Assembly (NCBI GenBank): GCA_963971405.1 | Contig: OZ020487.1 | Coordinates: forward strand, 44,117,039-44,181,038 | Reading direction: 5' to 3' | Length of the DNA: 64,000 nt | DNA from: Psococerastis gibbosa | Taxonomy: Eukaryota > Arthropoda > Insecta > Psocodea > Psocidae | In this document: one piece after another, positions 2,743-63,598 of the stretch | How positions within the stretch are numbered: the stretch's first letter is position 1 | Layout of the letters: each line of letters opens with the position of its first letter | Made by a program: the position numbers and the translations under genes | The notes under the pieces: generated by a model | What the model was told of the DNA's origin: nothing | The model's database searches: none | What the model saw: only the letters and a program-made list of their open reading frames with translations

Positions 2743-2920
2743 GGCGTGTATTCCACTGGTCAATATTCCGTCATTTGTGATTTTAAAAAAAATGAGAATT
2801 TTGTTTTAAGGAGACTATTATAATAGACAAGTTCAGTATCTACATAATAGTCTCATTAAAAAAAAATCTCAACTTTTTTTAATCAAAAATGACGGAATAT
2901 TGACCAGTGGAATACATGCC
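2743..2920. mobile_element. Palindromic MITE, P-type (P5), just upstream of gene A
   Basis: A near-perfect palindrome of 178 bp. The left end GGCGTGTATTCCACTGGTCA and the right end are complementary for most of the arm, including AATATTCCGTCATTT. The core contains AAGGAGACTATTAT and its complement, also found in the elements at 18583-18791 and 43688-44246. It is flanked by TTTA and TTAG, consistent with insertion at a TA-containing target. It ends 37 bp before the TATA box of gene A. Confidence 0.8.
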
Positions 2921-2957
2921 TTAGGTGCGTTTCTGAGTAGTTTTGGTTATCCCTGAC

Positions 2958-2995
2958 TATAAAGTGATTGACAACGTGGAGGTGTTATCGTCAGT
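2958..2995 (+). promoter_or_regulatory. Core promoter of cuticle gene A (TATA box and initiator)
   Basis: TATAAA lies at 2958-2963 and TCAGT, the arthropod initiator consensus, at 2991-2995. The spacing from the first T to the presumed start A (2993) is 35 bp. Genes B and C show the same arrangement at 33-34 bp, which supports the call. The predicted 5' UTR is 2993-3140. Confidence 0.65.
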
Positions 2996-3140
2996 TTAGG
3001 TCATTGAGACAGTGTTTTGTTAGGGCGGAGGTGTTTTACTGCATTTGGACCATTCAGCCGATTGGGTGCATTTCCTCATGCACATCACCTACTCAATTTC
3101 ACACTCATCCTACTGTTATGTTATAGATCATTTCCAGAAT

Positions 3141-6100
3141 ATGGTTCGTCAGGTAAGCACTCTCTACAATTTTAACTTTTTTTTTAAAACTGTGTTCTCC
3201 AAGTCAGGGGTTACCAACCTTTCTTTCCGTGTACCACTAGATTATTTTATGATTTTCCGTGGACCACCATAGCTGCGACAGGAAATTCTAGGATGATTTG
3301 TGCCTATAATTACATGCTAATATCGTATTTTATTAAATGTTTAGGACTTTAGGATTGGTTGGATTTTATAGTTCAGTTCCAAGACTTACTGTATTTTACT
3401 TCAAATTTCCAATAACTTAGCTGATTTATTTTATTTCTTACTTTGGTCCGTGGACTACCTGATATATGTATATCTGTAGACGGTGGTCCATAGACCACAG
3501 TTTGGGAACCCCTGCTCCAAGTGGTTCGAAATCCACTATAATCAGGAGGTCCTCCCTGTCAGTCAACTCACCTTCTCCCTGAGATGAAAGAGTCTGCCCT
3601 TAGGGTGCCTTAAATTGCAAAAAGGTATCCCTCCCCCCGCCAGGCTGATAGGCCTGCTTTAATGCAGAAATGCTGAAAAGCAGGCGTTAAAAAAACAGTT
3701 TTAAAGCTGATGGAATTTGAAAGATTAGTGTGTCAATTTGGCAGCGGTGTTTCTAAAACAGAAGTGCTCACTTTGTGAGTGGTAAAAACAGTTGTAATAG
3801 AAATTTGTCATGAAAATTAAATTACATTTTTTTAAAATTACATTTATGATTTTACGAGGAATTAACCAGCCCAACTGTGTTTCCACGTGCTAGGGTCGGT
3901 GCAATTAACATGCATGTCGGTTGTTTTTCCTTTCTATTTTGAATCCAATTTTCCCGTTACCACAGGTAAGTAGCCTACTTCTAATGAGGATTTACATCAC
4001 TGTTCATTCCGGTCCAAGGTGTAAATGCGCCAAAACATCAAAATCTAAAAAAAACTCAACATTTCTTTTCTCTCAGGTTTTAGCCCAAGGTGATCGTATA
4101 TTGATAAAATACTGATGATATAATATGTTTTTCCTAGAAAAAAAATCTCAAAGAAAATTTCCTGGGTCTTAACGGATTTATGCACGTAGATTTTTGTTCA
4201 CTTCAATTATGAAATATCGTAACAGTGAAATTTTTCACTTCCTTTCAGTTTTCGCTGATTTATCAACGCAGTAGGTTATAGTATTCTAGGCTACTGCAAC
4301 CACATCATTCCGCCACGAGTCTCAATTGCTGACGCTCAGCTTCCGGAGCTAGGTCTAAGCTGTTCTTTGCTTACAGGTGATCGTGTTAGCAGTTTTCCTC
4401 ACTTGCGCTTCTAGTCAGCCAACGCGTCAACAACGCCTCACGCTAGCCCAATGGGGGTCTTACAATTTTAGAGACCATAAGGTATGTAGCCAATTTTACG
4501 GATTTTCACTTTTGTTTGGAATGACTATTTTTTTATTTATATTATTTATTTATTACGGTATACGATGCAGAAAAATACAATTGTTAAAGTGCAAAACCGG
4601 GAGGTATGTATGTGTGAACACGGTGTTCATCGCTCATGAAAAATTAAGATTAATTAATATTACTATATTAACTACATTTTTTTTTAAATATAAACGACCT
4701 AAAATATAATAATAATATAATTACTGAATGAAACGACATGCTTTTTAGAATTTTAGCTCTGTAAGTTGGAGAAATAAGTCAGCCATTTGTAATATTGTAG
4801 CTTGTGGAAATACAGTGCCAGGCCTCAATATGGAGTAGACCTGCAGTCAGACCAATCTCAATACATTGTCCATCCAATATACTGCTATGCTCGATGAACT
4901 CAATGCCCGCGTATACACCCCTTTCTTCACTTTTTTCCTTGACCAGTAACCCCGGACAAGGTGCATATGAGTTGCCTATTAGCAAATGCAATCCTCTCCA
5001 CCCAGGTCGATTTTTCAGAAACCGCAAAAAACTGCTGTGCCGCAACGCCATGAGGTATAACATTACAGTTTTTAAAGCTAATTTTAACAGTCTTAGAATT
5101 GCTTTTGCGTCTCGATATCTGATTCATCGGATAGAGTATTGAAAAATAAAAAAAATGGCGCGAAAATCTCAAAACTGAAAAAAATGGAGAGGATTGCTTT
5201 TGCTAGTAGGTAACTCATATATTGAAATAAACAATTTGTTATTAAGTATAATTATCATAATAATAATAATAATTATAATAATACTTGTATCATGTGTCCG
5301 ATGTGGATGTTTTTATAAGCACTCACCCGCTTTAGCTTCTTCTTCTTTTTCTTACTGAAAAGCATTTTAGTGGACGGAGGAGTACTTGTAGTGTGTAGGC
5401 TTACACCGTGTCATTGGTAAGTTTGTCTCAGCTTGTCCATTATCGCTTGTGTATCGGACGTGTACCAGTGTGTCATTTGCCAAAAATTCTTAAAAACAAC
5501 ACCAATAATATCCGAAAAATTCATGGTGTCGTTGGCAGTAAGTTCCAAAGTTCCACTATATAATAATAATAGCGTGTATTGCAACCAACAGACAGCTCCA
5601 ATATAGGTTACATTACAATACAATACAATACAATCTTACAATCTAACATTTAATCAATTATGGCTAACAACATTGTCTTAAATACACTCAGAGAGGTTCC
5701 AAAAGGGTCAATTTCTATAAACGTGTCTAGTAGCCTAAGAATTCTGCCAAGTTGAGGCTCGTCATTGTCACACAAAAATAAATTCTTTAATCGAGAATTT
5801 GCCGCGTTAACTCTAAAACGTACCCCCGATAATAAATCGGGGCAGTCAATAAAACCATTAAGTAACCTAAAACCAAAAATATAACTAGAGGACGATCCAT
5901 AAAAACACTTCAAATCGACTCTAATGGCAAGGTGGCAAGTGGGTGTGCCTGGTGTGCCTAGCTGAGGGGGTGCTGCTGTTCCCAAAACTTACTACTTTGG
6001 TTTCTTCTTGAAGAGACGGGCGCCCGTGAGCGTAGTGAATTGAAGTTCTGGTAGACAAAGAGGGGGGGGGGGCACGGCACGACTCACTATAATATTGAAA

Positions 6101-9100
6101 TAGTAAAATTGTACAAAATGACAACAGTTACGGTACTTGTTATTACTGACATAAGCGGGTTATCGATTGATACTGAATGTATGGCGGGGATTCCACCAAC
6201 GTCAATAGTGATATTAAATGTTTTTTGACGTGGTAGCAGACAGTTTTAGACTGTCTAAAAATGTCTGCTACCACGTTAAAAAACATTTAATATCACTATT
6301 GACGTTGATGGAATCCCCGCCTATGTGCAGTTTTTCCTTCAGTCATGTTTTAACTTGACTAGTGGTAGCGCACTTGTACTTGGGCAAGTCTCTACATATA
6401 CCATGTGATCGGAGACGTGTCGTAACTCAACACGGGTGCTTAGGCGCCCATTCCACCGACCGGCTAGGGCTATTTACAAAAACAGTGACGTGGTAGCAGA
6501 CATTCAAGACTTAGGTGGCGTTTCCACCCTACCTCGCATTGCAGAATTGACGGAAATGTTTATTTTCCTCTATGCCTAGTAAAAATTGTATTGTTTCCGT
6601 ATATGACCCTTTGGACATTGGCAAACTAGTATACGTCCTCAATATCAACCTACACCGGCTATAAGCGACAATGGACAGACAGAGACAAGCTTACCATTTA
6701 GGTGCCCATTCCATTGACCGGCTAAGGCTATGGTGACATGGTAGCAGACATTTCAAGACTTAGGTGGCGCTTCCACCCACCTCGCATTGCAGAATTGACG
6801 GAAATGTTTATTTTCCTCTATGCCATAGTTAAAATTGATCAATGATCATACAGTAAAATCACAAACAAACAAACTAAAATTAAAAAATGGCTTCATGGGA
6901 TATGTTAATTACAAACATTTTAATAGATTTCTATAAAAAGAAAAACAAACATTTCCGTCAATGTCATTTGCAATCTGCAATGCGAGGTCGGTGGAAACGC
7001 CACCTAAGTCTTCAATGTCTGCTACCACGTCACCGTTTTTGTAAATAGCCCTAGCAGGTCGGTGGAATGGACGCCTAACCTACAGAGGCGACTGATGAGG
7101 TAAATCGGATACATTCATTTAATTGTCTGTATGCGATTAACTTTAAATTTTTTTTATATATTATTTAAAAAACACTGTAGCTATTTTGTCATGGGCTCTA
7201 AATTTTCTAGGGACCAGGAACTTATGCATTTGGATATGATATTGAAGACCCAGCGACCAATAATATTCAATTTCGCCAAGAAGAAAGGCATTTGAATGGA
7301 ACTGTAGTTGGAAGCTACGGATATGTGGAACCTAGTGGACATGTTAGAATACATCATTATGTTGCTGACGAAAATGGATACAGGTACCGTTTGAAAATTT
7401 TCTATTTTATTTATTGTACAATTAATATTATATTGTTTATAATAATGGGAAATATCCATTTACAGATACGATTTTACACTTTACAGTGAATTCACAGTGA
7501 TTTTTACAGTGAATTTACAGTGAATTTTTGTTAAAAACTTTGGAATATGCTATAATACTGACAATTTTAAAATAGGTTTCGAATTTTTCCAGTTTGGGAA
7601 CTTTGACATTCAATAGGGGTCCTCACATATTAAATTATTCATAAGTTTAAATTAGAGTTTAAACAGAGATAATCAATAAGTTTTATATATTTGTTTATTT
7701 ACTACAATTTCATACCGAAAATTACATTATAACTGAGTTTCCAGGTTTACCAGTCTAAAATTATACTAAATAATAATTTACAGTACGTGCATCGTACATA
7801 CACATACAGTATGTTTATTTCCCATAATCTCGTTGATGATCCTTTCAATGAATACTTTTATTTTATTTCCCTGTCTAGTGCCTCCAAGTCCGAATTTCGG
7901 CCTATAAACTTTATAGAGTTGCGTTGGTAGAGAAGACCTGTTAGGTCCAGGTATGAATTATATCGTTGAAGTTGAAGAAAAGGTGTGGTTTAAGACTTTA
8001 AGTGGGCAGTATTTGATGGTCATATTAATGGATATGTCAGAGCACTATCCGCTATCTGCGATTATCGTTATACATCTAAACCTCCTAGGTTTTTCGTTAA
8101 TTTACAGGTTAACAAATTTAATACAGCATTAGTAAGGTGTCACGTGTTAAAATATGCGCAAGAAACTCAAATTCATAAATTATGCAAAAGAATGGTTGCA
8201 TTGTTTGATAATTGAAAGAAATACTACTAATACAATTTATTAAATAGTACAGGTAGAATTTTGAAATATACTATAATAAGAATTTTAATTCATGTGTCTA
8301 CATCTAAGGGAGGAAAAATTGAAAACTCACCAAAAATATAATCGAGAATTAATTTAATTTTTTTTAAATTTAATTTAATTTATAGCGCATTTCTCACCTA
8401 TGAGGTTCTGTAGGGACAGTTTTGGTCATTAGGTTCGCTGACGACAAACCGATATCCATATTATTCAAAATGGCCACCGTTTGCATGTGAAAACTAAGCT
8501 CTTAGCATCTAATTAATGCTTTTAATATTTTTTATAATATTTTTACTATGCCTGGACCTTATTGCGCTGCATATAATTTAATATATATATTCTCCATGCT
8601 TTATAGAAAAATATCACTTAAAAATAATACATAAATAAAATAAATTTAAAATAGTATTGAGGCTTATGGAAAAATCAACGCTTTGATATCATTGCAACTG
8701 GTGCTGCCATCTACCAAATGACGTCACAAATGAACCTCATTTGTTTAAAACAATTGAATAAACTCCTCATTGATTAAATTTCAGAGTTACAGAAGAAAAT
8801 CCAGGACCCAGCCAGTTGCATCCTCACCACGACCCCCCAACGACAACGACCCCCAATCCTGTAATCCAGCAAGAAGACGAATACTTCGAGGGGGAGTTCT
8901 ACCCCACCGCTGACCAAGTCAGCAATGTGCAAGACAACACAAAACCCATACAGTTCCCCCCGTTCACATTTCCTCAACAGTCTCCACCAGTTTTCGAAGA
9001 TCAATTTTTTTGGCAGCAGCAATTTGGCAACAACGATGCTCTGAGTACCCATTTTTTGGCGCAAAACCATAGGGGACGTATTAGGAATTTAATGCCTATT

Positions 9101-11659: not shown

Positions 11660-12042
11660 GGCGCCCATTCCATTGACCGGCTAGGGCTATTTTCAAAACG
11701 GTGACGTGGTAGCAGACACTCAAGACTTGGGTAGCGTCTCCACCGATCTCGCATTGCAGATTGCAAGTGACATTGATGGAAATGTTTGTTTTTCTTTTTA
11801 TAGAAATCTATTAAAATGTTTGTAATTAACATATCCCATGAAGCCATTTTTTAATTTTAGTTCGTTTGTTTGTGATTTTATTGTATGATCATTGATCAAT
11901 TTTAACTATGGCATAGAGGAAAATAAACATTTCCGGCAATTCTGCAATGCGAGGTGGGTGGAAACGCTACCTAATTCTTGAATGTCTGCTACCACGTCAT
12001 CGTTGTTGGAAATAGCCCTAGCCGGTCAATGGAATGGGCGCC
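11660..12042. mobile_element. M-type MITE, full copy (M2)
   Basis: 383 bp, ends GGCGCCCATTCCATTGACCG and complement, preceded by TTA and followed by TAA. Each arm contains GACGTGGTAGCAGACA, and further in a second inverted pair GTCTCCACCGATCTCGCATT. The centre includes TTGATCAATGATCA. Non-coding; the 71- and 160-codon frames across it are palindrome by-products. Confidence 0.9.
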
Positions 12043-12263
12043 TAAACAGTACCTGCAATTGGTGAAGATGGAAGCGCGTAATGGCGACTGAATAGATAGA
12101 GGACTGAGTTTCAAACGAGATAATAAGAAAACAGCCATTTCGGTGCAGGGCACTCTTTTGCCTTGGGGGGTTGGCGAACTGGCCCCGAAGGCGGAGGGAC
12201 TCAATGAAGAGTCAATGCCATAAGGATGCAGAAGGCAACGGGAAACAATTGCAATACAATTCC

Positions 12264-12392
12264 TTATTCCACCGACGTCAATAGTGATTAATGAAGTGAT
12301 TGACGTGGTAGCAGACATTAAAGACAGTCTCAAAATGTCTGCTACCACGTCAATATCACCAACATTATCACTATTGACGTCTAATAACCGCC
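12264..12392. mobile_element. Small palindromic MITE, P-type (P2), inside SINE-F
   Basis: Arms ATTCCACCGACGTCAATAGT and near-complement, with GACGTGGTAGCAGACATTAA on the left arm and its complement on the right. The outermost GGCGG is present only on the right end (ACCGCC), so the left tip has been lost or altered. Confidence 0.8.
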
Positions 12393-12549: not shown

Positions 12550-13158
12550 AACATATTAATAAATAAATAAATATTGACTTTTTGTTCTATTCTATTACTA
12601 TGGTGCCCATTCCATTGACCGGCTAGGGCTATTTCCAACAACGGTGACGTGGTAGCAGACATTGAAGACATAGGTGGCGTTTCCATCGACCTCGCATTGC
12701 AGAATTGCCGGAAATGTTTATTTTCCTCTATGCCATAGTTAAAATTGATCAATGATCATACAGTAAAATCACAAACAAATAAACTAATATTAAAAAATGG
12801 CGTCATGGGATATGTTAAGTAGGCCTACAAACATTTTAATAGATTTCTATAAAAAGAAAAATTCTAATTTCCGTCAATGTCATTTGCATTCTGCAATGCG
12901 AGGTCGGTGGAAACCTTACCTAAGTCTTGAATGTCTTCTACCACGTCACCGTTGTTGGAAATAGCCCTAGCCGGTCAATGGAATGGGCGCCTAAGCCAAC
13001 CTAGCCCTCTCTTACACTCAACTAGGAAACCCCTGCTTTACGTGCCCTCCGAAGCATGTAAATGAAAAATGTAGCAAGTGTGGGATTCGATCCAACAACT
13101 TTTCGGGTGAAAGTTGGAGTCTGTATCACTACTTTACATACCCCGAATGTCCTGAACG
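12550..13158 (-). mobile_element. SINE-A copy split by M-type MITE
   Basis: The tail (AATAAATAAATAAATATTGA) and promoter-distal body lie left of M3, and the tRNA-Glu-like head lies at the right end (complement of GGATTCGATCCAAC at 13083-13098). The join ATTACTA / TAAGCCAACCTAG fits intact SINE-A copies with one TA(A) in common. Confidence 0.8.
12602..12991. mobile_element. M-type MITE, full copy (M3)
   Basis: 390 bp; left end GGTGCCCATTCCATTGACCG, right end complement of GGCGCCCATTCCATTGACCG. It contains both shells of inverted repeats described for M2 and is inserted in a SINE-A copy. Confidence 0.9.
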
Positions 13159-13165
13159 TGTGTCA

Positions 13166-13300
13166 GGTGGGGTTTCCACATACGTCAGTAATCAATAGTA
13201 AATGTGGTTTTGACGTGGTAGCAGACATTAAAGACATACTAAAAATGTCTGCTACCACGTCAAAACCACATTTACTATTGACGTACGTGTAAACCCCGCC
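13166..13300. mobile_element. Small palindromic MITE, P-type (P3)
   Basis: 135-bp palindrome with ends GGTGGGGTTTCCACATACGT and near-complement; each arm carries GACGTGGTAGCAGACATT or its complement and the centre is almost loop-free. It abuts the 5' end of the SINE-A copy and is followed by TAAGG. Confidence 0.85.
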
Positions 13301-18239: not shown

Positions 18240-18580
18240 GAGGTGTGTAACCTTTGAATGTGCAACAACTTCTAAAAGTTGCGACAAAATTCTTTTTGTA
18301 ATTTGATTTTGCCATAAGCCTCAATACTGTTTTAAAATTATTTTTAATTACGTATTACTTTAAAATGATATTTTTCTATAAATCATGGAGAATATATATA
18401 TTAAATTATATGCAGCGAAATGAGGTCCAGGCATAGTAAAAATATTATAAAAAATATAAAAAGAATTAATTAGATGCTAAGCGCTTAGTTTCCACATGCA
18501 AACGGCGGCCATTTTGAATAATATGGATATCGGTTTGTCGTCAGCGAACCTAGTGACCAAAACTGTCCCTACAGAACCTC
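18240..18580 (-). mobile_element. GAGGTTC-family MITE, antisense copy
   Basis: The right end GTCCCTACAGAACCTC and the interior (CGGTTTGTCGTCAGCGAACC, ATGCAGCGAAATGAGGTCCA) match 8402-8738 in reverse. The left 80 bp is diverged. It directly abuts the palindrome starting at about 18583. Confidence 0.75.
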
Positions 18581-18582
18581 AT

Positions 18583-18791
18583 TTCATCGATGTCGTTTTT
18601 CAATGTGAATGTGCATGACGTGGTAGCAGACATCATTAATAAATCTCTACCATATTATAACTTAATTTATAATAGATAAGTTAAGTATCTACATTATAGT
18701 CTCATTAAAATATGGCAGAGACTTATTAATGATGACTGCTACCACGTCATGCACATTCACATTGAAAAACGACGTCGATGGAATACCCGCC
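18583..18791. mobile_element. Palindromic MITE, P-type with spacer core (P4)
   Basis: Arms of about 75 bp: TCGTTTTTCAATGTGAATGT, then GCATGACGTGGTAGCAGACA on the left and complements on the right, ending GGAATACCCGCC followed by TAA. The core TACCATATTATAACTTAATT ... GATAAGTTAAGTATCTACAT is the same sequence as in the 43688-44246 elements. It combines the arm motif of P1-P3 with the core of P5-P7. Confidence 0.8.
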
Positions 18792-20060: not shown

Positions 20061-20448
20061 GGCGCCCATTCCACCGACCGGCTAGGGCTATTTACAGAAA
20101 CGGTAACGTGGTAGCAGACATTCGAGACTTAGGTGGCGTTTCCACCGACTTCGCATTGCAGAATGCAAATGACATTGACGGAAATTAGAATTTTTCTTTT
20201 TATAGAAATCTATTAAAATGTATGTACTTAACATATCCAACGACGCCATTTTTTAATTTTAGTTTGTTTGTTTGTTTGTGATTTTACTGTATGATCATTG
20301 ATCAATTTTAACTATGGCATAGAGGAAAATAAACATTTCCGTCAATTCTGCAATGCGAGGTCGGTGGAAACCCCGCCTAAGTCCTGAATGTCTGCTACCA
20401 CGTCACCGTTTTTGTAAATAGCCCTAGCCGGTTGGTGGAATGGGCGCC
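20061..20448. mobile_element. M-type MITE, full copy (M4)
   Basis: 388 bp; ends GGCGCCCATTCCACCGACCG and GGCGCCCATTCCACCAACCG in complement, flanked by TTA and TGA. The arms pair over more than 100 bp. This is the clearest copy for the two-shell structure: outer arm to GAGACTTA, inner arm from GGTGGCGTTTCCACCGACTT. Confidence 0.9.
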
Positions 20449-22038: not shown

Positions 22039-25000
22039 ATGGTCTGCAGTAAGGTAAGCTTATTTTTCTTCCTAAATTAATGAATGAAAAACGACTGTAT
22101 TGAAAATAAACAAAAGGCGAACAATAAGACAAAGTCTTGTTTTCATGCTAACCCTCAATTAATAATATCTAAAAGATTTTACTCAACTCAGTGAAAACCT
22201 TTCGAAGTTTCATGGTCATGGATTTGCTATTTAAAAGTTAATTGTTCAGTTGCTTGTTCTTTTAATCCCTCTTTTATCAAAGAATGGCAATCATCATGGT
22301 AATTGTAGTGATGATGACTAGGGAATGGTCCCTTGCCTTCTGCATCTTTCAGGCGTTGACTCTTCATTGAGTTCCTCCACCTTCGGGGCGAGTTTGCCAT
22401 CCCCGGAGTCCGCGCCCTATCTGTTTAGTCGCCATTACACGCTTCCATGTTCATCACGTGAATAAGGGATCTTCATGTCTTCACCTCTTAGGCACTACTC
22501 AGAAGCTCAGCTATTTTTAAGACTTGTTCAGTTTAATCAGTGTCAATGGTAACTGGGGCATTTTTTTAGTTAAATTTAAGTTATACGCCTATTTGACCCA
22601 CGCACAATTCAATTCAATTACTAATTTTCAATAAATTGACCTAGTCAAGTTTTAGCCGTGGACCTATTAAAAATTAAGGTTTTTCAAATCATTATATCAT
22701 CAAATAAACATAATAGTCTCCTTAGTAACTTTGTAAAACTTGCTGTCACTCATTGTTAAAATTAACCTTGTATAGTTTTACGATTAAAATTAAATTAAAA
22801 ATTCACAACCGGTTTCGGCTCACGCCATCGTCAAGTGCGTCAAGTCAAATTAAAATAGTGTTTTAATTTTTAAAATAGCTGTTTTAATTTTTAAAATAGT
22901 GTTTTAATTTTTAAAATAGTGTTTTAATTTTTAAAATAGTGTTTTAATTTTTATAATAGTGTTTTAACTTGACGATGGCGTGAGCCGAAACCGGTTGTGA
23001 ATTTTTAATTCAATTTTATTCGTAAAACTATACAAAGTTAATTTTAACAATGAATATCATCAAATATTTTTTTTTTTATTCTTTGAAATGTCTCCGACAA
23101 TTTTATTGACTTCAATGGCCAGGTGGTAGCGTGCTTGTACTTGTGCGAGTCTCTACACGCCATGAGATCGGAGACGTGTCGTAACTCGATACAAGTATCT
23201 ATTAGGTAACTTAGTGAGGCGACTGAAGATGTCAATCGGATACATTCATTGAATTGTTTACATGAGATTAACCTTTTTTTAATAATAGAAAAAATAGTAG
23301 TAATTCTTCTTTAAACTATTTTTTTACCTAATTTTATACCTGATTTCCCACTAGGTCCTTTATAAGACATGTAGAGTAGTGGTATGGACTCCAACTTTCA
23401 CCCGAAAGTTTGTTGGTTCGAGTCCCACACTTACTACATTTTCTGGTCAAGCTTCGGAAGGCATGTAAAGCTGTATACCAAATGGATCTGTACTTATACA
23501 TATTACTACTTTAAATTTTTAGTTCTTATATTGTTATCGGCACCTTGCCTCCATGTGCAAAATGGCTGCACAATGGCAAGGGACCCAAAGAAGAAAAAAT
23601 GTATTATCTAAATTTATGTAACTGGATTTATTTTGGAAATTACACTATTATTATTATTATTAGTTGGATGTATATAATAAATATGTTATATAGCCCTAAC
23701 TCCGTTGGCTTAGTAAAAAAAAAGTCAATATTTATTTATTTATTTATAAGAAATAATCGGACACACCCACAATCCGTATTAACTCATTTAAATAAAATCC
23801 AATAGTTTTCCAGTAAATATACGATTATACTCGTACTTGTAGAATCATAAATGACCCATGTCTTATATTGGAAAAAATGTTCTAAATTTTAATATTGTAC
23901 CGGACATCCTCAGTGGCCGCCATTATCTTTTAAATTTCGGGGTGTGTGACAACGACATAATTGTGAATAGAAATGTGAAGGAACATTTTTTCTACTAAAA
24001 TCTTGACTGTTGCTTCATTTGGGATTTTGTGGCCAGCATCAGCAAACGTATATTTTACCGTAAATAAATATACAATACATGCACATGCATTAATATTCGG
24101 GGCAACAAGTTGTGCGAATCACGGTTTCGTTTCTAACAGGTGGCTTAGAAAGTCTTACCTAAGAACTACAATGCTAACTAGCAACTACAACTAGTGCTAA
24201 TGCCACTCCAAATACAATAGGGTTTTCACTTTGTGATTCAGCATGCTAAATGTTAAAATGAAGAATTATCTCCGATAAGAAATAAATAAATAAATACCTA
24301 CTAAATATAAATAAAATGTAATAACGTAAGCTAGTAATAAATAATTAAAATTCAACCACTCACACACTAAAGATACACTAATAAACTAAAAAAATCCCTT
24401 TCACGGAGATTCCGCAGACCCTGCTTTTCCTTTACGCTACCTACAAAGGTGGACTTTGCCTCCAATTTAGGGGGGGGGGGGGGTCAGTGGGCAGGTTCAG
24501 TGGATTATAACATTAAAAAACATTATTATTTTTAATTTCCACTGTAAACCCATTGTTATCAACGGGACGTCATCTTGAAATCGTTGATTTGTCGTAAAAG
24601 GTGCTGATAACAATTATCGTAGATAATAATACGGGCTTTCAGTCAGATTTTAATTCATTCCTCTGCAACCAATATTAACTGAGATATGAATTATATAAGG
24701 TTTCAATCGGCCGCCATCTTGTAACTAAATTGTGGATCTAGCTGGTTAACGTACTCGATCAAGCCATTTGTATGATCGATTTTTGTGCCAAGTTTCATCA
24801 AAATCAGATAATATTTACGGAAGTTAGTTCCTAAAATCGATGTACATACAATATATATATATATAACATTTTGAACGGATGGTGGTTTTAGGCTCTGGGG
24901 GTCATAAAATGAAAAGTTGTGAAGAAATTTTCCGAAAGTCAAACATTGGTCGCCATCTCAATAGGTAGATGAATCTCCCTAAAATACACAATAAAAAAGG

Positions 25001-28000: not shown

Positions 28001-29992
28001 GGTCACCTCCGATTTAATCGTGTGACTTTGCCATGATCCCCAAGTGGCTTGGAATCCACTATAATCTGGAGGTCCACCCTGTCAGTCAACTTCCCTTTCC
28101 CCCAAGGTGAAGGAGTCTGCCCTTAGTTTAATCGGTCATTTTTTAACCAGCAAGTACGTACACACGGTTATCGACGTCGTAACGAAAACAAAAATACACG
28201 TAGAACTTAATATCTAATATTAAAAATAATGTATGTATGTATGTAATAAAGAAGTACCAGTAGAATATCAATTACATGACGCGCTTTTGAATATAAGAAA
28301 TAAATCTTCAGTTAGGTAATTCAGAAGTTCCCAAGTTGCACTACCTAATCATAACCATGGTGTTGCCAACTCGGAATCTGTTAATTAGCGTACATCAGGG
28401 CCGCACGAATCCTATGAACTGTTACAGCCTTTGTACGAAATTGCTGCACATGTCGTTGTATCATGCATTAGGTACGTATGTAGACCGTTACGGCGTTACG
28501 CTTTTAATGGGAAAATTAGTTGGTGAGGTAAATGGGATGAATGACATAATACTACTTTAATTTACTACTTATGTCATTAGGCTAATGGAATAATGGGAAT
28601 GAATTAAGATGAAGTCTTTCGTATTCATCCTAAACCACTTTTCATACCTAATCCAGTCCAAATGTCTGCGGAACTTACTCTCCTTAGGCGCCCATTCCAC
28701 CGACCGGCTAGGGCTATTTACAAAAACAGTGACGTGGTAGGAGACATTCAAGACTTAGGCGGGGCTTCCACCGACCTCGCATTGCAGAATTGACGGAATT
28801 TTTTATTTTCCTCTATGCCATAGTTAAAATTGATCAATGATCATACAGTAAAACCACAAACAAACAAACTAAAATTAAAAAATGGCGTCATGGGATATGT
28901 TAAGTACATACATTTTAATAGATTTCTATAAAAAGAAAAATTCTAATTTCCGTCAATGTCATTTGCATTCTGCTATGCGAGGTCGGTGGAAACGCCACCT
29001 AAGTCTTGAATGTCTGCTACCACGTCACCGTTTTTGTAAATAGCCCTAGCCGGTTGGTGGAATGGGCACCTTACTCCGTGACACTGCAGCCCGTGACGGG
29101 CCTTGGCCTGCACCAGAACATGGCGCCTTGGCCTGCACCAGAACTTGGCGCCAGTGCCTATCCATGCCAGTTAGACGCCAAGCTCTCTTAAATCTGGTAC
29201 ACAAGGGCATTTGACGCGGGGCTTCAGACGCTGAGAAATTTGTCATGGGAACAAATGGGTGGTTGGTTGGTCTATTTTGGAACACACTTCAGATGGTTTC
29301 CGTGACGCTGACGTGTTGTTGGCGTATTGCTGGCGTGTTGCTGATAGACGCTGGCGTATCAAGTGGAAAGGTGTACTACCTGCGACAAGCTAGTGACCTG
29401 CCAGCGACTATAATCTGATGCAGTAGACTCCGGGGTAGACACCAACCCATTTGCTCACATAACGAACTTCTCAACGAACCGCGCTTGTTTACCGGACCTT
29501 AGTTCACTCTGCCTTAGTTCACTCTGCCTTGTAGCTTTGGTCGACCCGCACTTGCTCTGCCCTGTGAGGTGTCTCAGCCATCTGACGCGAGCCAGCCATC
29601 CCAAATGGCAGTTTCCTCGTTGAGAGTATACGCAGTGCCACAAAACGTTATCAGTGGTGCGAACATATCTCCACGCGAACATTTCACGTTCCACACAGCT
29701 GTTCCCAAACCACATTTTAACACTTCTTACCTTGCAGGCACATCCCAAATACTCCTTCAAATACGGTGTCAACGACTACCACACTGGTGACATCAAGTCT
29801 CAGCACGAGTCTCGCGACGGTGACGTTGTCAAGGGCCAGTACAGTCTCGTCGAGCCCGACGGCTCAGTCAGGACCGTCGACTACACCGCTGACAAGCACA
29901 ATGGCTTCAACGCTGTCGTCCACAAGACTGCCCCCACCCACCATCACGAACACCACGAGGCTCCCGCTGTTGCTGAACACGGACACTACTAA
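22039..29992 (+). CDS. Cuticular protein B, RR-2 family (three exons)
   Basis: Predicted secreted, chitin-binding cuticle protein. Exons 22039-22053, 27509-27691 and 29738-29992 join in phase 0 across GT-AG introns of 5455 and 2046 bp, giving 150 residues and a TAA stop. Exon 1 encodes MVCSK and exon 2 continues the signal peptide ([15 protein letters not shown]), then a Ser/His/Gly-rich linker with [16 protein letters not shown]. Exon 3 starts with [18 protein letters not shown], then [37 protein letters not shown]: the hallmark RR-2 consensus of stiff cuticle, bound to chitin through the aromatic residues. The C-terminus is His/Ala-rich. Codon use in exons 2-3 is much more GC-rich than the surroundings, as expected for a highly expressed cuticle gene. 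Exon 1 rests on its donor, phase and promoter. Confidence 0.93.
22280..22460 (-). mobile_element. SINE-F fragment in gene B intron 1
   Basis: In complement it has GAAGCGTGTAATGGCGACTA, CTCAATGAAGAGTCAACGCC and GATGCAGAAGGCAA, then CATCACTACAATTACCATGA, the same order as in the other SINE-F copies. Confidence 0.7.
22705..23053. mobile_element. TIR element with minisatellite in its loop
   Basis: Inverted arms of about 90 bp: TCATTGTTAAAATTAACCTT ... ACAACCGGTTTCGGCTCACG, CCATCGTCAAGT on the left (from 22750) and complement on the right to 23053. The loop holds about five units of GTTTTAATTTTTAAAATAGT (20-21 bp) at 22855-22972. The left side also has CATAATAGTCTCCTTAGTAA (22707-). A deleted copy lies at 32366-32475 and an end fragment at 44690-44752. 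Confidence 0.75.
23095..23280 (+). mobile_element. SINE-B copy
   Basis: CTTCAATGGCCAGGTGGTAG, CGTGCTTGTACTTGTGCGAG and GATCGGAGACGTGTCGTAAC, then GGCGACTGAAGATGTCAATC and GGATACATTCATTGAATTGT. This is one of the most complete copies. Confidence 0.7.
23364..23752 (+). mobile_element. SINE-A copy with replaced or inserted middle
   Basis: Head 23364-23480: ACATGTAGAGTAGTGGTATG, TTTCACCCGAAAG, GGTTCGAGTCCCACAC. The tail 23685-23752 has ATATAGCCCTAACTCC, TTGGCTTAG and ATTTATTTATTTATTT. About 200 bp between them does not match SINE-A and includes another poly-AT stretch. Confidence 0.7.
23760..25165. other. Gene B intron 1, unassigned AT-rich part
   Basis: No gene. A poly-G run at 24471-24482 (GGTCAGTGGGCAGG follows) hints at a hAT-type MITE end. 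Otherwise nothing recognised. Confidence 0.4.
25170..25503 (+). mobile_element. SINE-F, full-length uninterrupted copy
   Basis: Begins around GGTGTCAGAGGTGAAGACGT, runs through GAAGCGCGTAATGGCGACTA, CAGTGCAGGGCACTCTTTTG and AATGAAGAGTCAACGGCATA, and ends CAATCGCCAGTCTTCGATAG, AAGCGGCATTAGAAGATGAA, GAAG. The last 40-45 bp equals the 3' end of the LINE fragments at 19090-19190 and 42490-42982. No convincing tRNA head was identified. Confidence 0.7.
25552..25998. mobile_element. TIR element (about 50-bp arms) carrying a nested 5S-type SINE
   Basis: Arms GAAGAACCAGTAGAATCCGG, GCTGATGGGCCGTGGTCGAG and complement at 25945-25998. The interior has GAAGATGTCGACCGCAGATG and TTGACGAAACGTTTGGAAG. A shorter relative is at 47568-47756. 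The SINE at 25638-25864 interrupts it. Confidence 0.75.
25638..25864 (-). mobile_element. 5S rRNA-derived SINE with 13-bp target duplication
   Basis: Same sequence as 13830-14076. AGCCACCGAGGTA occurs directly at both borders (25618-25630 and about 25866-25878). The 3' tail on the - strand is TTACTACTAA. Inserted in the TIR element 25552-25998. Confidence 0.85.
26726..27002 (-). mobile_element. 5S rRNA-derived SINE with 13-bp target duplication, extended 3' part
   Basis: The head on the - strand is GCCGGCCGCCAAACCAAGTT. CTGCAAGTACCTA flanks both sides (26702-26714 and about 27002-27014). Compared with the other two full copies it has an altered 3' region before the TACTACTAC tail (GGTCGCTCTATGGGCCC). 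Confidence 0.85.
27873..28125 (+). mobile_element. 5S-derived SINE, second subfamily, in gene B intron 2
   Basis: Starts GCCAATGGCCTTACCAAGTT, TAATC and contains GGCAGGGGAACATAGTGGGA, CCTGGTCACCTCCGATTTAA, TGGAATCCACTATAATCTGG and AGGAGTCTGCCCTTAG. It is the same family as 34880-35252 but truncated at the 3' side. Confidence 0.75.
28687..29070. mobile_element. M-type MITE, full copy (M5), in gene B intron 2
   Basis: 384 bp; GGCGCCCATTCCACCGACCG at the left, complement of GGTGCCCATTCCACCAACCG at the right, flanked by TTA on both sides. One arm carries GACGTGGTAGGAGACATT, a single change in the shared motif. Confidence 0.9.
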
Positions 29993-31695: not shown

Positions 31696-32531
31696 TACAT
31701 TTTGCGTCACTGGTAAGCATGGCTCAGCTTGTACATTGTCGCTTGTAGTCGGTGTAGGTTGACCTCGAAGTACCAAGTTGAGAGCGGCCAAAATTCATTC
31801 GAAAATAATACCACTAATGTTGGAAAAGTCAATCGGCTGAACTCATAGACGAACCTATTAGATGATGAACCTGTAGAATCCTTTGCAGTTACATAGAACC
31901 TATTAGGTTATAGGTAAGTTAAGAAAATTTGCTATTTCCCATGCTCAAACCAATTCAATCAATCAATTCAATTATATTACAATTACAAACGCATACAATA
32001 TCATTTCATAAAAATTATTATCACTGGGCTTTTAGTTATTAGCATTTGCTTACGGAAAATGAGCAAAAGCTTGAGATACGCAGGTGACCCTCAATGCTTG
32101 AAATTATCAATGCAGATCGACCTTTTTTCTCTATGAAGAAATTCTTCCCCTAAAAGAAATGTTCTTGCTCAAATTTTTATTATTAGAACCCCAAATGCTC
32201 CAATTCAGTGATTAATTTAGGCTTTTTTTTATGAATCCGGCTGAATGAGGGCGTTGCAGGGCATTAAGGTTCAATTGAAGTAGGGCTGCGGGTTGCATCC
32301 AAAAAAAAGGCCTTCGAATATAATAGCAACGATACTCGGATGAAGAATGTTGGTATGATCCTAGTTATAAACATAATAGTCTCCTTAGTAACTTTGTAAA
32401 ACTTCATGTCACTCATTGTTTAAATTAATTAATTTATTTATTCGTAAAACTATACAAAGTTAATTTTAACAATGAATGATCCTAGTTATAAATTTAGGTA
32501 CATATTAGAAATAATAAAACCTACTCGGGGT

Positions 32532-43344: not shown

Positions 43345-43686
43345 ATATTTATTGCAGAGCTAGAAAAAAGATTTTAGTAATTAGAAGGAATATTTTCGTC
43401 ATTCTGATACATACTCGTATGATGTGTGGCCGTCACTAGCCCCGATTGGCCACGATCGTCAGAATATAGGCTATTATATATATATAATTATGTATATAGC
43501 CTACTAGTATATATCATCTAGGCTAGTATTTTTTTTTTAAACCCTAAGGTGTGCGAACGCCATTTTTGCACTTATCAATTCTGACAATTGTGGCCAATCG
43601 GTGCTAGAAACAGAATGAAAATATTTAGAAATATTTCTTATAATGCCTAAAATCTTTTTCTAAATTAGCTCTAGAATAAATACTTA
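43345..43686. mobile_element. Fold-back element with long arms
   Basis: AAATATTTATTGCAGAGCTA, GAAAAAAGATTTTAG on the left and complement at 43650-43686; inside, CCGATTGGCCACGATCGTCA pairs with TGACAATTGTGGCCAATCGG at 43579-43598. The arms are imperfect. Confidence 0.65.
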
Positions 43687-43687
43687 T

Positions 43688-44246
43688 GCCTGTCAATATT
43701 CTGTCATGTGTGCATCAATAATTGATGAGATTTTTGTTTTAAGGCGACTATTCTGTATATACTTAACTTATTTATTATAAATTAAGTTATAATATGGCGG
43801 ATATTCCACTTAATATTTGATTTTGTGAATTTTGTCATTGACGTTTGTTTTGCTTTAATAGGAGACTATTATGTAGATACTTAACTTATCTATTATAAAT
43901 TAAGTTATAATATGGTAGAGACTTATTATAACTTAATTTATAATATATAATAATAATAATAAAGTCTGTATTAAAAAAAAAATGTATAGATACAGCGAGA
44001 TTAGAGCCTATGGCCCTCTCTTACACCTAACTGTACATAACAACGATATAGTTTGATTGAAATATATATATATATATATATATAAGTTAAGTATCTACAT
44101 AATAGTCTCCTTAAAACAAAACAAACATCAATGACAAAATTCACAAAATCAAATATCAAGTAAAATCGCCGGTGGAATAGCCGCCCAGGGTAGAGACTTA
44201 TTATTGATGAATAAATGACGGAATATTGACAAGTGTCATAACCGCC
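43688..44246. mobile_element. P-type palindrome (P6) with a second P-type element nested in it
   Basis: The outer arms (GTCAATATTCTGTCA ... and complement to ACCGCC at 44246) are related to the 2743-2920 element. The middle is taken up by the inner element 43796-44185. The outer left tip is diverged or lost. Outer core words: AAGTTATAATATGG left of the insert and TAGAGACTTATTATTGATGA right of it. Confidence 0.75.
43796..44185. mobile_element. Inner P-type element (P7) carrying a SINE-A scrap
   Basis: 390 bp; ends GGCGGATATTCCAC and complement of GGCGGCTATTCCACC. Arms share ATATTTGATTTTGTGAATTT and GGAGACTATTATGTAGATAC. The loop includes a short SINE-A remnant (complement of AGAGGGCCATAGGC, 44000-44030) and a (TA)n run at 44061-44083. 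Confidence 0.75.
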
Positions 44247-46008: not shown

Positions 46009-46068
46009 GAAGTTTATATAGTACCTACCTTGCCTACTTTAGAAATGTTTTAGTGAAAATTAAAACCA

Positions 46069-46203
46069 TAACCGAAATTAGAGGATATGGAAAAAATTGG
46101 GCTTGGCGGGATTCGAACCCACGATCTACGCCTAACTGGGGCGTCGTGGGTTCGAATCCCGCCAAGCTCAGTTTTTTCCATATCCTCTAATTTCGGTTAT
46201 AAC
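46069..46203. repeat. Perfect-arm palindrome built from two tRNA 3' halves
   Basis: AACCGAAATTAGAGGATATG, GAAAAAA, then GGCTTGGCGGGATTCGAACC, CACGA is followed, after about 20 bp, by its complement. Each arm contains a B box and T arm (GGGTTCGAATCCCGCC). The arms are about 54 bp with almost no mismatch. Confidence 0.85.
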
Positions 46204-52041: not shown

Positions 52042-55000
52042 CAGGCCCGGCCCGAGGTATTTTCTTGAGTGGTGCGAGTTTACATTTTAGCGCCCCCCCC
52101 CCCCCTCCCAGAGACCGTAAATTATTCATGAACGCTTGAGTATGGGAGACATTAAAAAATTGTGCATGCTTCTTATAAAGGGATTGTATTAGGCAACTGT
52201 AACTAATAACTAAATGTAAAATTATTGAAATTTCTCCTTCCTAGCTTTGATGCTAGCAAATTTTTTAATCAAATGATCATAGGAGAGATTGTTGGCGATC
52301 TCATTTTCTATGGATAATATGGCTAAGTCCGACAATTTCTCATCAGCTAAAACAGACCTTAGGTAGGTCTTTATCAATTTTAGCTTGCTGAAGCTCCTTT
52401 CTCCCTTAGCAACAGTGACCGGTATAGTAATGAAAATGCGGAGAGCTGTCCAAACGTTTGGAAACATATCTTTCCAACAATGCTTTGCCAAAAACTCAAG
52501 AACCCCCTTTGGATGCCCATCGTCGCCGCCTAAGAACGCACTAAGGCTCCTTATTTCTTGGGCTAGCTCGGTACCCGAAATATCACTGAGAGCGCCATGG
52601 GTTAAGACAGATTCTAAATCTGAGCAGGCCGCATTCAAACCATTATGGTCGATCTTTTTCAAATCGTACATAAATTGCCATGTACTATTAATGTCACTTA
52701 ATTGGGAAAAGCGCAACTGCAATGAATTAATGGCTGTGTCAATCATTGGATAGAAGACAGAGGTGCGAAACGCTGTTTCTGGGTCAGTAGGAGATTCGTC
52801 TTGATTTTCATAAGAAAACATCTTCTTTTTCCTTCGCAGACGGACAGTTTCAAACTCCTGAGTGATTTGTGCTTCTTCAGCGATTTCTTTGGCAGTGATG
52901 AGTGCAGCAGTGAAACCTGTACTTCTGTATTCTTTTAAAAATTTCAAGCATTTATTCATAATTTTTGTAGCTTCGGACAAATCCATGGTTTCAGATTGCA
53001 TTGTTTTGCTTACTAGATTAACCTGGAATAAAACATCGTACCATATGACTAACGCCATTAAGAACTCGAACTTTTCCAAATTTACAAGAAGCGATTCAGC
53101 CTCTGAGCTTGCAACAGGGTCCGTTGATTGTTCATATTCATCCTCCAGAGCCCTTTTAACTTCAGCATACTGATACCGCACTGCTTTCAAGCTGTTGATC
53201 CTGCTTTCCCAGCGTGTGTCACAAACCTTTTTCAGGCTTAAATTTTGCAGATGCTCTGAGACCACCTTCCACCGCTTTGTTGAATTTGAGAAATACACAA
53301 ACAGCCGTTGCAGCACACCAAAAAGAGACACTGATTTGATAGAAGTTTTTGCTGCATCGGCAACCACAAGGTTGAGACTATGACAGCCGCAAGGGTTAAA
53401 AAAGGCTCGTGGATAGGTTTTAGCAATGCGACTCTGAACTCCTTTAATGTGTCCAACCATATTAGCACCATTATCATATCCTTGGCCCCTGCAGTCATTC
53501 ATGTCAATACCATATTTATCAATTATTTCGTCCAAAAATAAGCCCGTCAGGCCGGCTCCAGTTGAGTCAGCCACTGGCTTATATGTCAAAAAACACTCAC
53601 GCACACGCGCTTCATCGACGTCGAAAAATCTGAAGGTGACACTCATTTGCTCAGTGTGGCTGATGTCAGGAGTACAGTCTAAAATTATAGAAAAATACTT
53701 GGCACTTCTTATTTTAGATAATATTTGGCCTCTTACTTCGTCAGCTAATAATTTAATTACTTCGTTTTGAATATTTTTGCTAAAATAAAAATGCTTGGAT
53801 TCCTTCTGCATCACTCTTCGCAAGTGCTCCATCATGACGGGGTCGAATTGGCCAAGTAATTGTACAAGGCCTAAGAAATTCCCATTTCTTGGAGTGTATA
53901 AAGTGTCCTTGCTACCACGAAAAGGCAAATTGTGTTCAGCCAAAAACAGCGTGATGGCGATCATTCGTTCCATAACAGAAGACCACCTTGCTTTTTCATC
54001 CTCCAATTGCTTCTGAAGCCCTTTATCTATGCCACAACATTTTTTTAACCTTTTAGCCGTTTCAAGCCACGTTAATAAGGCTTGCTGGTGGTCGTCAGAA
54101 AACTCATGGCTCGTTAGTAAACGAGACAAATGATGCCAGTTGTCAGAGCCAACATTGGAAAGATGGCAACGACTTGTGCGCTTGAAGATGTGACAACAAA
54201 AGCAGTATACTTTCTTTGTTGAATTGGAATAAACAAGCCACTGCCGCTCATATACTTCTCCGTTGGGCATGCTTTTTTTGAAATGGCTGTTGGAAAAATG
54301 CCGGCCTTTCTCATTTTTTGGGTATTTATCATCATCGAGTTTCCCGTTTTGCGGCCCCTCTTCAACGATCATGTCAATAACTTGTGAAGACAAGTAAGAG
54401 GGCCACTTGGCTATGTCCATAGAAAAACTTCTTTCTTCTTCACTGCAAGGCAAGTTCTCAAAAATGGCCTCGTCCAGCGCAACCGCCTGGGCCTCACTCT
54501 CAACCGTACTTTCCTTGCTTGTACTAGGGGGCTGGGTTGGGTCTGGATGTGGACCTGGCCGTTTTAGAAATTTGGCCATTTGCGCCGCTTGCTTTTCATT
54601 CTCAGCTTCCCTAGCTCTTCTTTTCCTCTCATTTCCGGCGCCTGACAATTTTTTCCACATTGCCTTTGCAAAGTTGCTAAAATAAAAGACACATAAATTA
54701 CCTTAAGTCTAAATAAAGTCCAAAATAAATAAATATACAATAAGTTGGACATACAGTAGACATAAATTCTCTTATTTGATATTAATAACAAACACAAACC
54801 ATTCGCAGAATTGCAAGCCGACTAAGCCGAGCCACTTCTTAATCTGCTTTGTAACTCTCTTATTTATTATAACAACAACTTAATACAAATACCGCTATAA
54901 AGCATCTGCGTCTGCTTACCTTAAAATTTTTTTGTTGCCAATTGCAATTATTTATAAAAATCTCACAAGAGATACGAGTGAAGCTGAAATTAGTAACCAA

Positions 55001-56706: not shown

Positions 56707-56761
56707 AAGACATTTTACTATTTTCCATTGTATTAGCGAGAAAATAAAGTTATCATACTGT

Positions 56762-60439: not shown

Positions 60440-60620
60440 TAAATAAATAAATCTTGACTTTTGTTGTTCTGTTACTAAGCCAACCTAGGGGAGTTAGAGC
60501 TATAAAGCCCTCTCTTACACTCAACTAGGATGACCCGGGACCACCTGCTTTACATGCCCTTCGAAGCAAAAATATAGCCAGTGTGGGACTCGAACTAACA
60601 ACCTTTCGGATAAAACATCA
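60440..60620 (-). mobile_element. SINE-A copy
   Basis: AAATAAATAAATCTTGAC tail, AAGCCAACCTAGGGGAG and the complement of GGTTCGAGTCCCACAC-like GTGTGGGACTCGAACT. The 5' tip is truncated. Confidence 0.8.
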
Positions 60621-60624
60621 TTTG

Positions 60625-61430: not shown

Positions 61431-61434
61431 GCAG

Positions 61435-61470
61435 TATAAATTGTTAGTCAAGTGGTTGTTTGGTATCAGT
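61435..61470 (+). promoter_or_regulatory. Core promoter of putative cuticle gene C
   Basis: TATAAA at 61435-61440 and a perfect initiator TCAGT at 61466-61470, 33 bp from TATA to the A. The 5' UTR of about 53 bp leads to ACCACC before the ATG. Confidence 0.65.
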
Positions 61471-61520
61471 TGAGTTTGTGCCTTCTCTCCAGCCAAAGCA
61501 TTTGGATTAATCAAACCACC

Positions 61521-61532
61521 ATGGACTGCAAA
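61521..61532 (+). CDS. Putative cuticular protein C, first coding exon (gene continues beyond window)
   Basis: ATGGACTGCAAA followed by the donor GTAAGT gives MDCK in phase 0, the same design as exon 1 of genes A (MVRQ) and B (MVCSK): a tiny first exon that begins a signal peptide completed in exon 2. CCACC before ATG is a good translation-start context. No matching exon 2 was found up to 64000, so intron 1 would exceed 2.4 kb, well within the range of gene B. Assignment as a cuticle gene is by architecture, promoter and neighbourhood only. Confidence 0.55.
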
Positions 61533-63214
61533 GTAAGTACCTACAGAAAAAGAGTCAAAATCAGCAGCCCGAAATAAAATAGCCAGCATGTTTATTATTT
61601 CTGAAATAAAATAATCAGAAAAAAATGCAATAGTGGTCACTTCTATGTCAATATCAAGAAAATGAGTTTCCTTATCTCTTATTTACCATCTGATTTTTTC
61701 ACTTCAAAATTTAGAATTAATTACGTAATATATAGACCTACCATTTTCGGGGAAGTGGTCATTGGGGAATATATAGGCATTGTTTCTAGGGGGCAATACA
61801 TCTAAGCGACTGGTACTCGCTATATAGTGGTTACTTCAATGTCAAGATCAAGAAAATTTCCTTTCATTTTTTTTTTTACTTTCCTGCTCCTTTGCTCCTA
61901 TTTTACTGCCTTATTTTTCACTTCAAAACTTTACAAGCATAACGTTTAGCTTATTAGATACCTTTTTAGGGACACCCAATGGACGACAATAGGCTAATTT
62001 TCTGGAGGGAGCACTACGGCTACTTTTTAGCGACTGGAACTCGCCTTATGTGTAAATTATAATAGGACTTCTCTCCTCAACTTATCGTTAGGACTCGGCA
62101 TTTTTCATGGGAGCGGAGCGGGAGGGGGGGGGGCTTCAGTCACCAGCAATGAAAGGCAAGAAAGGACAAATATTTCCGCCGGTCCTGGGTCCAACAAGCT
62201 AACCACTGCAACCAAATTGTCATTGTCATTGATTGATTGTCATGGTCATTGATCAAGAGAGTTATTTTTAGTAAGAACTCAGACATACGTATTTGGGTGA
62301 TAAAATTCTCGACCGGGAACCCTATCTGATTAGGCTAACCCTGGAGGTACTATCACACTAGGCTAGAGGTTCTCAAAATGTTTTCTTCGTGGACCTCTAA
62401 AGGAAATGAAATTGTATTGCTACTTCTAAATTCTATATTGTATTTTTTACGTAGATTACCCTGGATAAAAGGCTTACAATCCTATTTTAACTTGACCTAT
62501 TGAACAATTTCGTCTCACATTTTCCTATTTCCCACCAACTGGACCAGGGTGGTACTCCCTAGTCCCCAAGCCGAAAGTGTCAAGGACATTCCCTATTTTT
62601 TAAACATAACTAATTAGTAAAATGTTTATTATTAATTAGCATGAAGAACAGGAACAAAAATAGTTCCACGTGATGACTCAGCTAAAATTGGTGATCAATG
62701 TAAAAAATTGAAGCAATATGCATTATGTATATACATACATATATTATATTTTTTCGACAAGTCACGGAACCACACCATTTGTGGACCGCCTTTAATGGAT
62801 TATATAAGTTAAAACAGTGTATTACTGATTCAAAATAATAATTGGGTAGGCCAATTAATTTCATGTGCTTGCTCCTATTCCTAATAGATGAAAATCAGAT
62901 ACCATGTAACAAACAAGATTAATATGGGAAAGAATTGTGTAATTATATATAATTTACTATACCGTATATAAAAACAACCTTGACTTACCTTATATTTAAG
63001 TACCCATTAAGTAAAAAAGACTAGAAAATTCCTCCACATCCGATGCTACAAACTATAATTAATTAACATTTGCTGGCAGTCAGTATAAATCGAAATCCAG
63101 AAACGCCATTGTCTTGTTTCTCATAGATTGCCGACATAGTTCTAGTTTTTCCTCTTTTTTATATTTTCCCTGACGCATCTTGCTATGCGCCCACGACAAC
63201 ATTCTATGAATTTA
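61533..63214. other. Presumed intron 1 of gene C
   Basis: AT-rich. 61640-61690 and 61830-61880 share GTCAATATCAAGAAAATG-type words, with GGTCATTGG / GTGGTTACTTC around, a diverged local duplication of about 190 bp. A one-sided hAT-like end (GGCTAGAGGTTCTCAAAATG) is at 62362-62381. No exon recognised. Confidence 0.4.
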
Positions 63215-63598
63215 GGTGCCCATTCCATTGACCGGCTAGGGCTATTTCCAAAAAAGGTGACGTGGTAGCAGACATTCACGACTTAGGTGGCGTTTCCACC
63301 GACCTCACATTGCAGAATTGACGGAAATGTTTATTTTCCTCTATGCCATAGTTAAAATTGATCAATGATCACACAGTAAAATCACAAACAAACAAACTAA
63401 AATTAAAAAATGGCTTCATGGGATATGTTAAGTACAAACATTTTAATAGATTTCTATACAAAGAAAAATTCTAATTTCCGTCAATGTCATTTGCATTCTG
63501 CAATGCAGGATCGGTGGAAACGCAACCTAAGTCTTGAATGTCTGCTACCACGTCACTGTTTTTGGAAATAGCCCTAGCCGGTCGGTGGAATATGCGCC
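63215..63598. mobile_element. M-type MITE, full copy (M6)
   Basis: 384 bp; ends GGTGCCCATTCCATTGACCG and complement of GGCGCATATTCCACCGACCG, flanked by TTA and TAA. Both arms carry GACGTGGTAGCAGACATT or complement. Confidence 0.9.

Follow-up and report, generated by a model that had tools for sequence, protein, structure and literature searches.

What allows short palindromic elements to keep their ends while their interiors differ? The question is raised by a stretch of 64,000 nucleotides of the Psococerastis gibbosa genome (contig OZ020487.1; G000:C12:44117039-44181038 in an assembly of 409 Mb and 68 contigs), referred to below as the window. An earlier reading of the letters alone, the original prediction, had described palindromic elements with common tips of the GGCG..TTCCAC type, and these were recovered: 27 tips of the form GG[CT]G-N2..7-[AT]TTCCA[CT] were found on the two strands of the window, whereas 50 first-order Markov resamplings gave 1.06 on average and never more than 4. 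Allowing up to three mismatches, GACGTGGTAGCAGACA occurred 21 times and GGAGACTATTATGTAGATAC six times. The elements with these tips span about 135-390 bp. Their interiors are arranged as had been described, with an arm motif and almost no loop in P1-P3, the motif around a P5-type core in P4, and the motif around a different palindrome in the M copies. They are non-autonomous, Tourist-like miniature inverted-repeat transposable elements (MITEs), for whose movement in trans a PIF/Harbinger-type transposase with a MADF DNA-binding partner is the most probable source.

The elements are MITEs with a 3-bp target-site duplication (TSD) that leans to the TWA of PIF/Harbinger. Using P1 (6183..6321, a near-perfect palindrome of 139 bp with the TSD TAT/TAT) as query, 1,411 first-look candidates were obtained and the best 40 were scored, giving 40 full-length places with 97-100% identity in the better orientation, window copy included, plus one partial place. 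The TSD sample comprised 29 P1 loci (L001-L029), of which L025 was dropped as the same place as L006; L023 and L024, with common flanking sequence, were both retained. Exact 3-bp agreement of the flanks was observed in 16 of the 28 copies, with 0.18 expected from swapped partners. Agreement at 4 bp was absent (0/28) and agreement at 2 bp occurred in 2/28, by which a 2-bp TA duplication, an idea prompted by the many M copies flanked by TTA..TAA, was ruled out. The exact duplications read TAA (six), TTA (four), TAT (two) and ATA, GAT, AGA and TTT (one each), and 11 of the 12 mismatched ones were off by one base. In 28 other tip pairs, 12 were exact at 3 bp (chance 0.30); P2, P4, 6701-7075, 43796-44185 and L037 were left out for decayed or shared ends, and the false pair 6443-7075 was counted as one of the misses. 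As a separate observation, the P1 mismatches (12/28) exceed the expectation from age, the copies being 97-100% identical to that of the window, and 7 of the 11 one-base mismatches fall at the first of the three bases.

One insertion in the window can be set beside its uninterrupted target. The MITE at 43796..44185, paired by eye from its tips and arms, has a left flank ending in AAGTTATAATAT and a right flank of CAG followed by GGTAGAGACTTATTAT; the uninterrupted copy at 43885-43950 reads AAGTTATAATATGGTAGAGACTTATTAT. Exactly 3 extra bases are present (CAG right vs TAT left), and therefore this element was inserted into a relative, an older P5-type host at 43677..44246 (decayed tips; limits approximate, by eye). 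This nesting is a correction to the earlier inventory.

According to the accessible part of PMC4482050, PIF/Harbinger elements make TWA duplications and usually have A- or G-initial inverted repeats, and ISL2EU elements duplicate AT. The GGYG tips are G-initial, and 3 bp are duplicated here, not the 2-bp AT of ISL2EU. The elements are also short, non-coding and of high copy number with inverted repeats, as MITEs are. They resemble PIF/Harbinger (Tourist-like) MITEs in the 3-bp, TWA-leaning duplication, the short G-initial inverted repeats, the high copy number and the nature of deletion derivatives that retain the ends of an element; they differ in a relaxed target, near-palindromic bodies and concentric composites in thousands. 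The earlier statement that no described family was known went too far, since PIF/Harbinger MITEs are indicated by the TSD, the tip and the interior alike. In the available portion of PMC2213677, Medicago MtPH elements show deletion derivatives, nested insertions, inversions and mosaic subterminal blocks in one group, and abortive gap repair is proposed; the deletion derivatives, nested insertions and mosaic blocks are shared with the present elements, whereas MtPH elements measure about 0.4-24 kb and that portion describes no symmetric layers. The Anopheles composite AgaP2-P12MITE has ends from two subfamilies, as has locus L032 below, but belongs to the P superfamily with an 8-bp TSD (PMC1562414, in extract). 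Palindromes, as here, make up six of the 32 novel MITE-like clusters reported for Anopheles gambiae, and no layered architecture is described for them in the excerpt of PMC3212995. No description of the present family was recognised among the open-licence papers listed for palindromic, nested, composite or mosaic MITEs, for Harbinger and for the tip words. The new part is the layered, re-symmetrised form; nesting, mosaics and deletion derivatives are already known.

Genome-wide counts were made per strand, with reversed patterns as controls. The M junction, GACTTA followed directly by the inner tip, was matched exactly 3,737 + 3,766 = 7,503 times (control 0). The P4 arm-core junction gave 1,616 + 1,616 = 3,232 matches with up to two mismatches (control 0), a count in which one palindromic element can yield two matches, and the L048-type start AAACAATGGCGTCGTCTGGAGAT gave 241 + 232 with up to one mismatch (control 0). 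A sample of twenty 10-kb stretches, drawn from nine contigs, contained 52 tips, distributed over 13 of the stretches. Thousands of copies in one genome form a large natural data set on the origin of a gene-less MITE family, bearing on the joint change of palindrome arms and on the short sequences needed for mobility. Of the modular superfamily originally proposed, the kept tips and the recurrent inner modules, in hundreds to thousands of copies, stand; the M shells are not swapped blocks.

From the tip inward the order is a 14-bp tip, a spacer of ~29 bases, TGACG at 43-48 and the core. TGACG was present at 43-48 in 13 of 23 hand-picked tips and begins TGACGTGGTAGCAG in P1, P3, P4 and M; TGACGTGGTAGCAGACA is the arm motif, a proposed binding site. 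Between P1 and M the motif is identical at 17/17 bases (positions 44-60, at the same offset), whereas identity outside it is 0.28 in the spacer, 0.18 in the next 11 bases and 0.79 in the tip. The inner palindrome of M is as had been described, with the correction that a further tip of this class belongs to it, placed 70-71 bp inward from the outer one. This interior is in itself a whole MITE, about 240-250 bp long, the full-length arm having its own TGACG at 45. The concentric look of M is that of one MITE inside another.

The outer-shell spacers of the composites are graded. Identity is 0.83 from the inner tip to the L037 shell, 0.83 from L037 to L032, 0.90 from L032 to L042, 0.83 from L042 to L031 and 0.90 from L031 to M, the M row being a hand-typed consensus. 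Concentric exchange of modules, as first proposed, agrees with the P1/M motif, which is kept between unrelated sequence, but not with these graded steps; block exchange is therefore only part of the story. In 20 composites, shell identity was 0.934 within an element vs 0.871 between elements, 0 of 5,000 permutations reaching the observed value, in a comparison that includes sub-family effects and the false pair 6443-7075. The higher within-element identity shows joint arm change, with the mechanism not indicated. Two further observations concern M. An AACAG/AACGG difference between the outer arms, visible in few copies, changes sides relative to the inner unit between the CCAC and the CCAT sub-family, as though the inside of M had been flipped. 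At L039:2439-3246, two mirror-image M copies stand head to head, 40 bp apart, in the manner of an inverted duplication.

How an inner unit may have become enclosed is suggested by L032:3509-3895, where the inner unit is preceded by AATAAA and followed by TAAGTCT. Given a TAA duplication plus a single additional A, these flanks rebuild ATTAATAAGTCT, as in the P4 arms. At L042:3119 the AATAAA type stands on both sides of the inner unit (AATAAA..TTTATT), and in M the GACTTA type does (GACTTA..TAAGTC). The mixed flanks of L032 fit insertion at TAA, and the simplest history would begin with a P4-like centre receiving the inner unit, which gives the L032 state, and continue with half-over-half copying in either direction. 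A recurrent cycle in this MITE lineage, of self-insertion into a palindrome centre and half-to-half copying that yields a new palindrome with a new shell, is put forward only tentatively; L032 would be its before state, and L042 and M its opposite symmetric after states.

More generally, tips and motif would serve as binding sites that keep each type mobile, and the sequence between them would be free to change. New shells could arise when one MITE lands in the centre of a second and the outer tips then mobilise the two as a unit, when one palindrome half is copied onto the other and symmetry is restored (as a guess, by hairpin-templated repair after excision), or when both arms drift together into new sub-families.

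Inner-type tips also occur as outer ends. Exact matches with TWA and without GACTTA numbered 202 + 201 = 403 (control 0); as only some 42% of unrelated flanks would get through this pattern, the actual figure could be closer to 950. Seven facing pairs among the 100 listed measured 140, 253, 301, 306, 324, 352 and 388 bp tip to tip, of which 140 corresponds to a P-type palindrome, 253 to the free inner MITE and 388 to an M-like composite, and the single pair with printed flanks had TTA/TTA. Locus L037:2478-2785, considered as a one-ended element with an inner tip as its end, was set aside because its right flank seems to retain shell traces (TAAGT..AATG..CTACCAC).

Three classes of tip, those of the inner MITE, of the L045 type and of the L038/L048 types, go with one common interior, made up of a leader and the start of an open reading frame (ORF). 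The leader reads TTTACTYTATGYCAT..TTGATCAATRATCA.. and then AGTAAAATCA, with GATCAAT between TTTACTYTATGYCAT and AGTAAAATCA and variation in some copies; ATGGCGTC follows in all types except L038. The ORF start after it is MASWGMTTTTILIDFFKKE in L045 and MASSGD in L048, and L038 is without ATG. In the window, a relic of the ORF start lies at 28882..28935 on the + strand, in the inner MITE of M5. The M and L045 peptides may be read as resembling the start of a MADF protein. Searching for DFYKKxxCLW with up to three mismatches gave 61 + 82 = 143 matches (reversed control 17 + 17 = 34), and the only one with a single mismatch was C3:2690870, where GATTTATATAAAAAGATGTGGTGTCTGTGG encodes DLYKKMWCLW. 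The pattern AGTAAAATCA-80..110 bases-CTGTGG gave eight matches (control 3), one of which ends at the C3:2690870 match base. With TTCCA added 86-116 bases outward, two matches were obtained (the C3 place and C13:34572819-34573031; control 0). The gap from TTCCA to AGTAAAATCA is 87 bases in both, a distance that recurs in the inner copies at L031, L035 and L042, and the corresponding gap in young inner copies is 76.

C3:2690870-2691061, a non-MITE place known from pattern matches and 30 printed bases, holds TTCCA, the leader and a frame in register that runs on into the MADF-like YKKMWCLW. With a leader of 21 bases, the length found in L003/L005 (one copy), L030 and L037, its Asp would fall at codon 14, where the MITEs have theirs. 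On these register distances the C3 place is taken as a candidate relative of the parent element and offers a concrete lead to the mobilising element; the palindromes have the appearance of a PIF/Harbinger-like element reduced by deletion. A parent of the L045 type, with ..FLW, was absent from the 21 DFYKKxxCLW matches with up to two mismatches. A search with the 20-residue ORF start was swamped by MITE copies (best 150 of 15,060 candidates, frames of at most 113 aa).

Candidate partner proteins were sought by profile. DDE_Tnp_4 gave at least 150 matches over the cut-off, many in intact frames of equal length (best 150 of 220 candidates scored; the control search gave a match in 1 of 14 named genomes), and MADF at least 113 (best 150 of 210 candidates scored). 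In 19 places a listed DDE_Tnp_4 match (20/150) and a listed MADF match (20/113) are no more than 5 kb apart, and 21 of 22 such pairings are convergent; the proximity of the two indicates that two-gene Harbinger elements live in the genome. In the accessible text of PMC9710019, both PIF proteins are required, and a 9-bp subterminal motif is the binding site of the Myb-like protein in Harbinger3_DR. Two families were rejected as partner: the 384-aa transposase family (L050), with no tips in 4 kb, and the DLYKELPCLW family (19 places among those listed), none of which has a listed DDE_Tnp_4 match within 16 kb. DLYKELPCLW (GATTTATATAAAGAGTTGCCATGCCTGTGG) is itself a multi-copy coding repeat, MADF-like, at G000:C1:12850142 and 18 other places.

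Several points weigh against PIF/Harbinger mobilisation with kept binding sites and nested, re-symmetrised shells. The elements are abundant in the genome, yet no transposase was tied to the MITE tips, L050 being the one transposase locus read; in its 4,001 bases the tips are absent, the best agreement being 12/14 positions. No listed DDE_Tnp_4 or MADF match lies closer than 265 kb to the C3 place (nearest listed DDE at 265 kb), which is not among the 113 listed MADF matches. The peptides of M and L045 and the MITE frames gave no Pfam match, and C13:34572819, which has the same gap of 87, is probably one of the MITEs, with CTGTGG there by chance. Six of the 16 exact P1 duplications are not TWA (10/16 are TAA or TTA). 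Ten of the 23 tips, some of which came from the same element, are without TGACG at 43-48, and in the available part of PMC9921582 mPing and mPong have no promoting internal sequence in common, which speaks against a required internal motif. The case for symmetrisation is carried by L032, the single mixed copy of the sample, with an extra A at its left junction, and L032 could be a recombinant of both symmetric forms. The un-nested M shell had 0 matches genome-wide to the exact pattern; the idea of a simple insertion into a surviving T1 shell was rejected on that count.

Recombination or template switching during gap repair might instead have swapped shells, arm motif and cores as blocks, nesting then being unneeded. 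P1 and M are alike only in the tip and the motif, L042 and M differ at bases 61-71 (0.27) beside a similar spacer (0.72) and motif (0.94), and L032 carries one of each inner flank, as block exchange would have it. Such exchange is nevertheless rather doubtful as the explanation: the M shells are graded, the shell measures 70-71 bp throughout the copies examined, tips and an ORF-start relic of its own are present in the inner unit, and the window holds a nested insertion with 3 extra bases. The grading, together with the motif offset near 44 and TGACG at 43-48 in over half of the tips examined, would suit one old family in which selection for transposase binding has kept motif and tips and the remainder has diverged, with no exchange or special mechanism. 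Divergence of that kind does not account easily for the abrupt transition between P1 and M, where unlike spacers adjoin an identical motif, nor for P4, which links the arm motif to a core also present with other tips, and we regard it as unlikely.

Mobilisation by ISL2EU or another DDE group instead of PIF/Harbinger appears improbable. The commonest listed DDE_Tnp_4 family (about 384 aa; L050) does combine DDE_Tnp_4 with HTH_Tnp_4 below the cut-off, and GG-initial tips are usual for ISL2EU in the accessible part of PMC4482050; the 2-bp AT duplication of ISL2EU is opposed by the preponderance of 3-bp over 2-bp agreement (16/28 vs 2/28), and the parent-like C3 place reads as MADF. That chance words or unrelated hairpins are involved can practically be dismissed, given the excess of tips in the window and the thousands of exact junctions with reversed controls of 0.

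Tips in the window were paired by arm similarity, which recovers most of the listed elements. Besides P1, these are a P5-type MITE at 2743..2920 (core GGAGACTATTAT, TSD TTA/TTA, arm identity 0.91), M1b at 6701..7075 (short deletion in the left shell), M2 at 11660..12042 (shells around an inner MITE at 11730-11971), M3 at 12602..12991 (inner MITE 12673-12920), P3 at 13166..13300 (a P-type palindrome with flanks TCA/TAA), M4 at 20061..20448 (inner MITE 20132-20377), M5 at 28687..29070 (inner MITE 28758-28999, TSD TTA/TTA) and M6 at 63215..63598 (inner MITE 63286-63527). The pair 6443-7075 has its right end in common with 6701-7075 and was rejected as false, the left end of M1a being joined to the right end of M1b; M1a itself (6443..6590, right limit by eye) is the broken left part of a composite M element. 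The limits of P2 (a P-type palindrome at about 12259..12392, motif matches at 12302 and 12336) and P4 (about 18574..18791, arm motif around a ATTAATAARTCTCTACC core) were set by eye, each having one decayed left tip. The core word at 32365, previously assigned to these elements, belongs, by eye, to another repeat; at 22705-23068 and 32360-32480 another repeat family carries ACATAATAGTCTCCTTA, a word of the P5-type core, beside GTAACTTTGTAAAACTT.

A 57-bp inverted repeat at 46068-46200 has a tRNA-like GGGATTCGAACCC box on each arm and is perhaps a palindromic SINE-derived unit; ARAGORN reported 0 tRNA in the window. Arthropod marks in the window include two insect cuticle domains (PF00379; 7211-7486 and 29624-29989), together with a hAT transposase and the reverse transcriptase of a LINE. 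An open hAT-like transposase frame of 812 aa, with DUF4371 and Dimer_Tnp_hAT, lies at 52222-54660.

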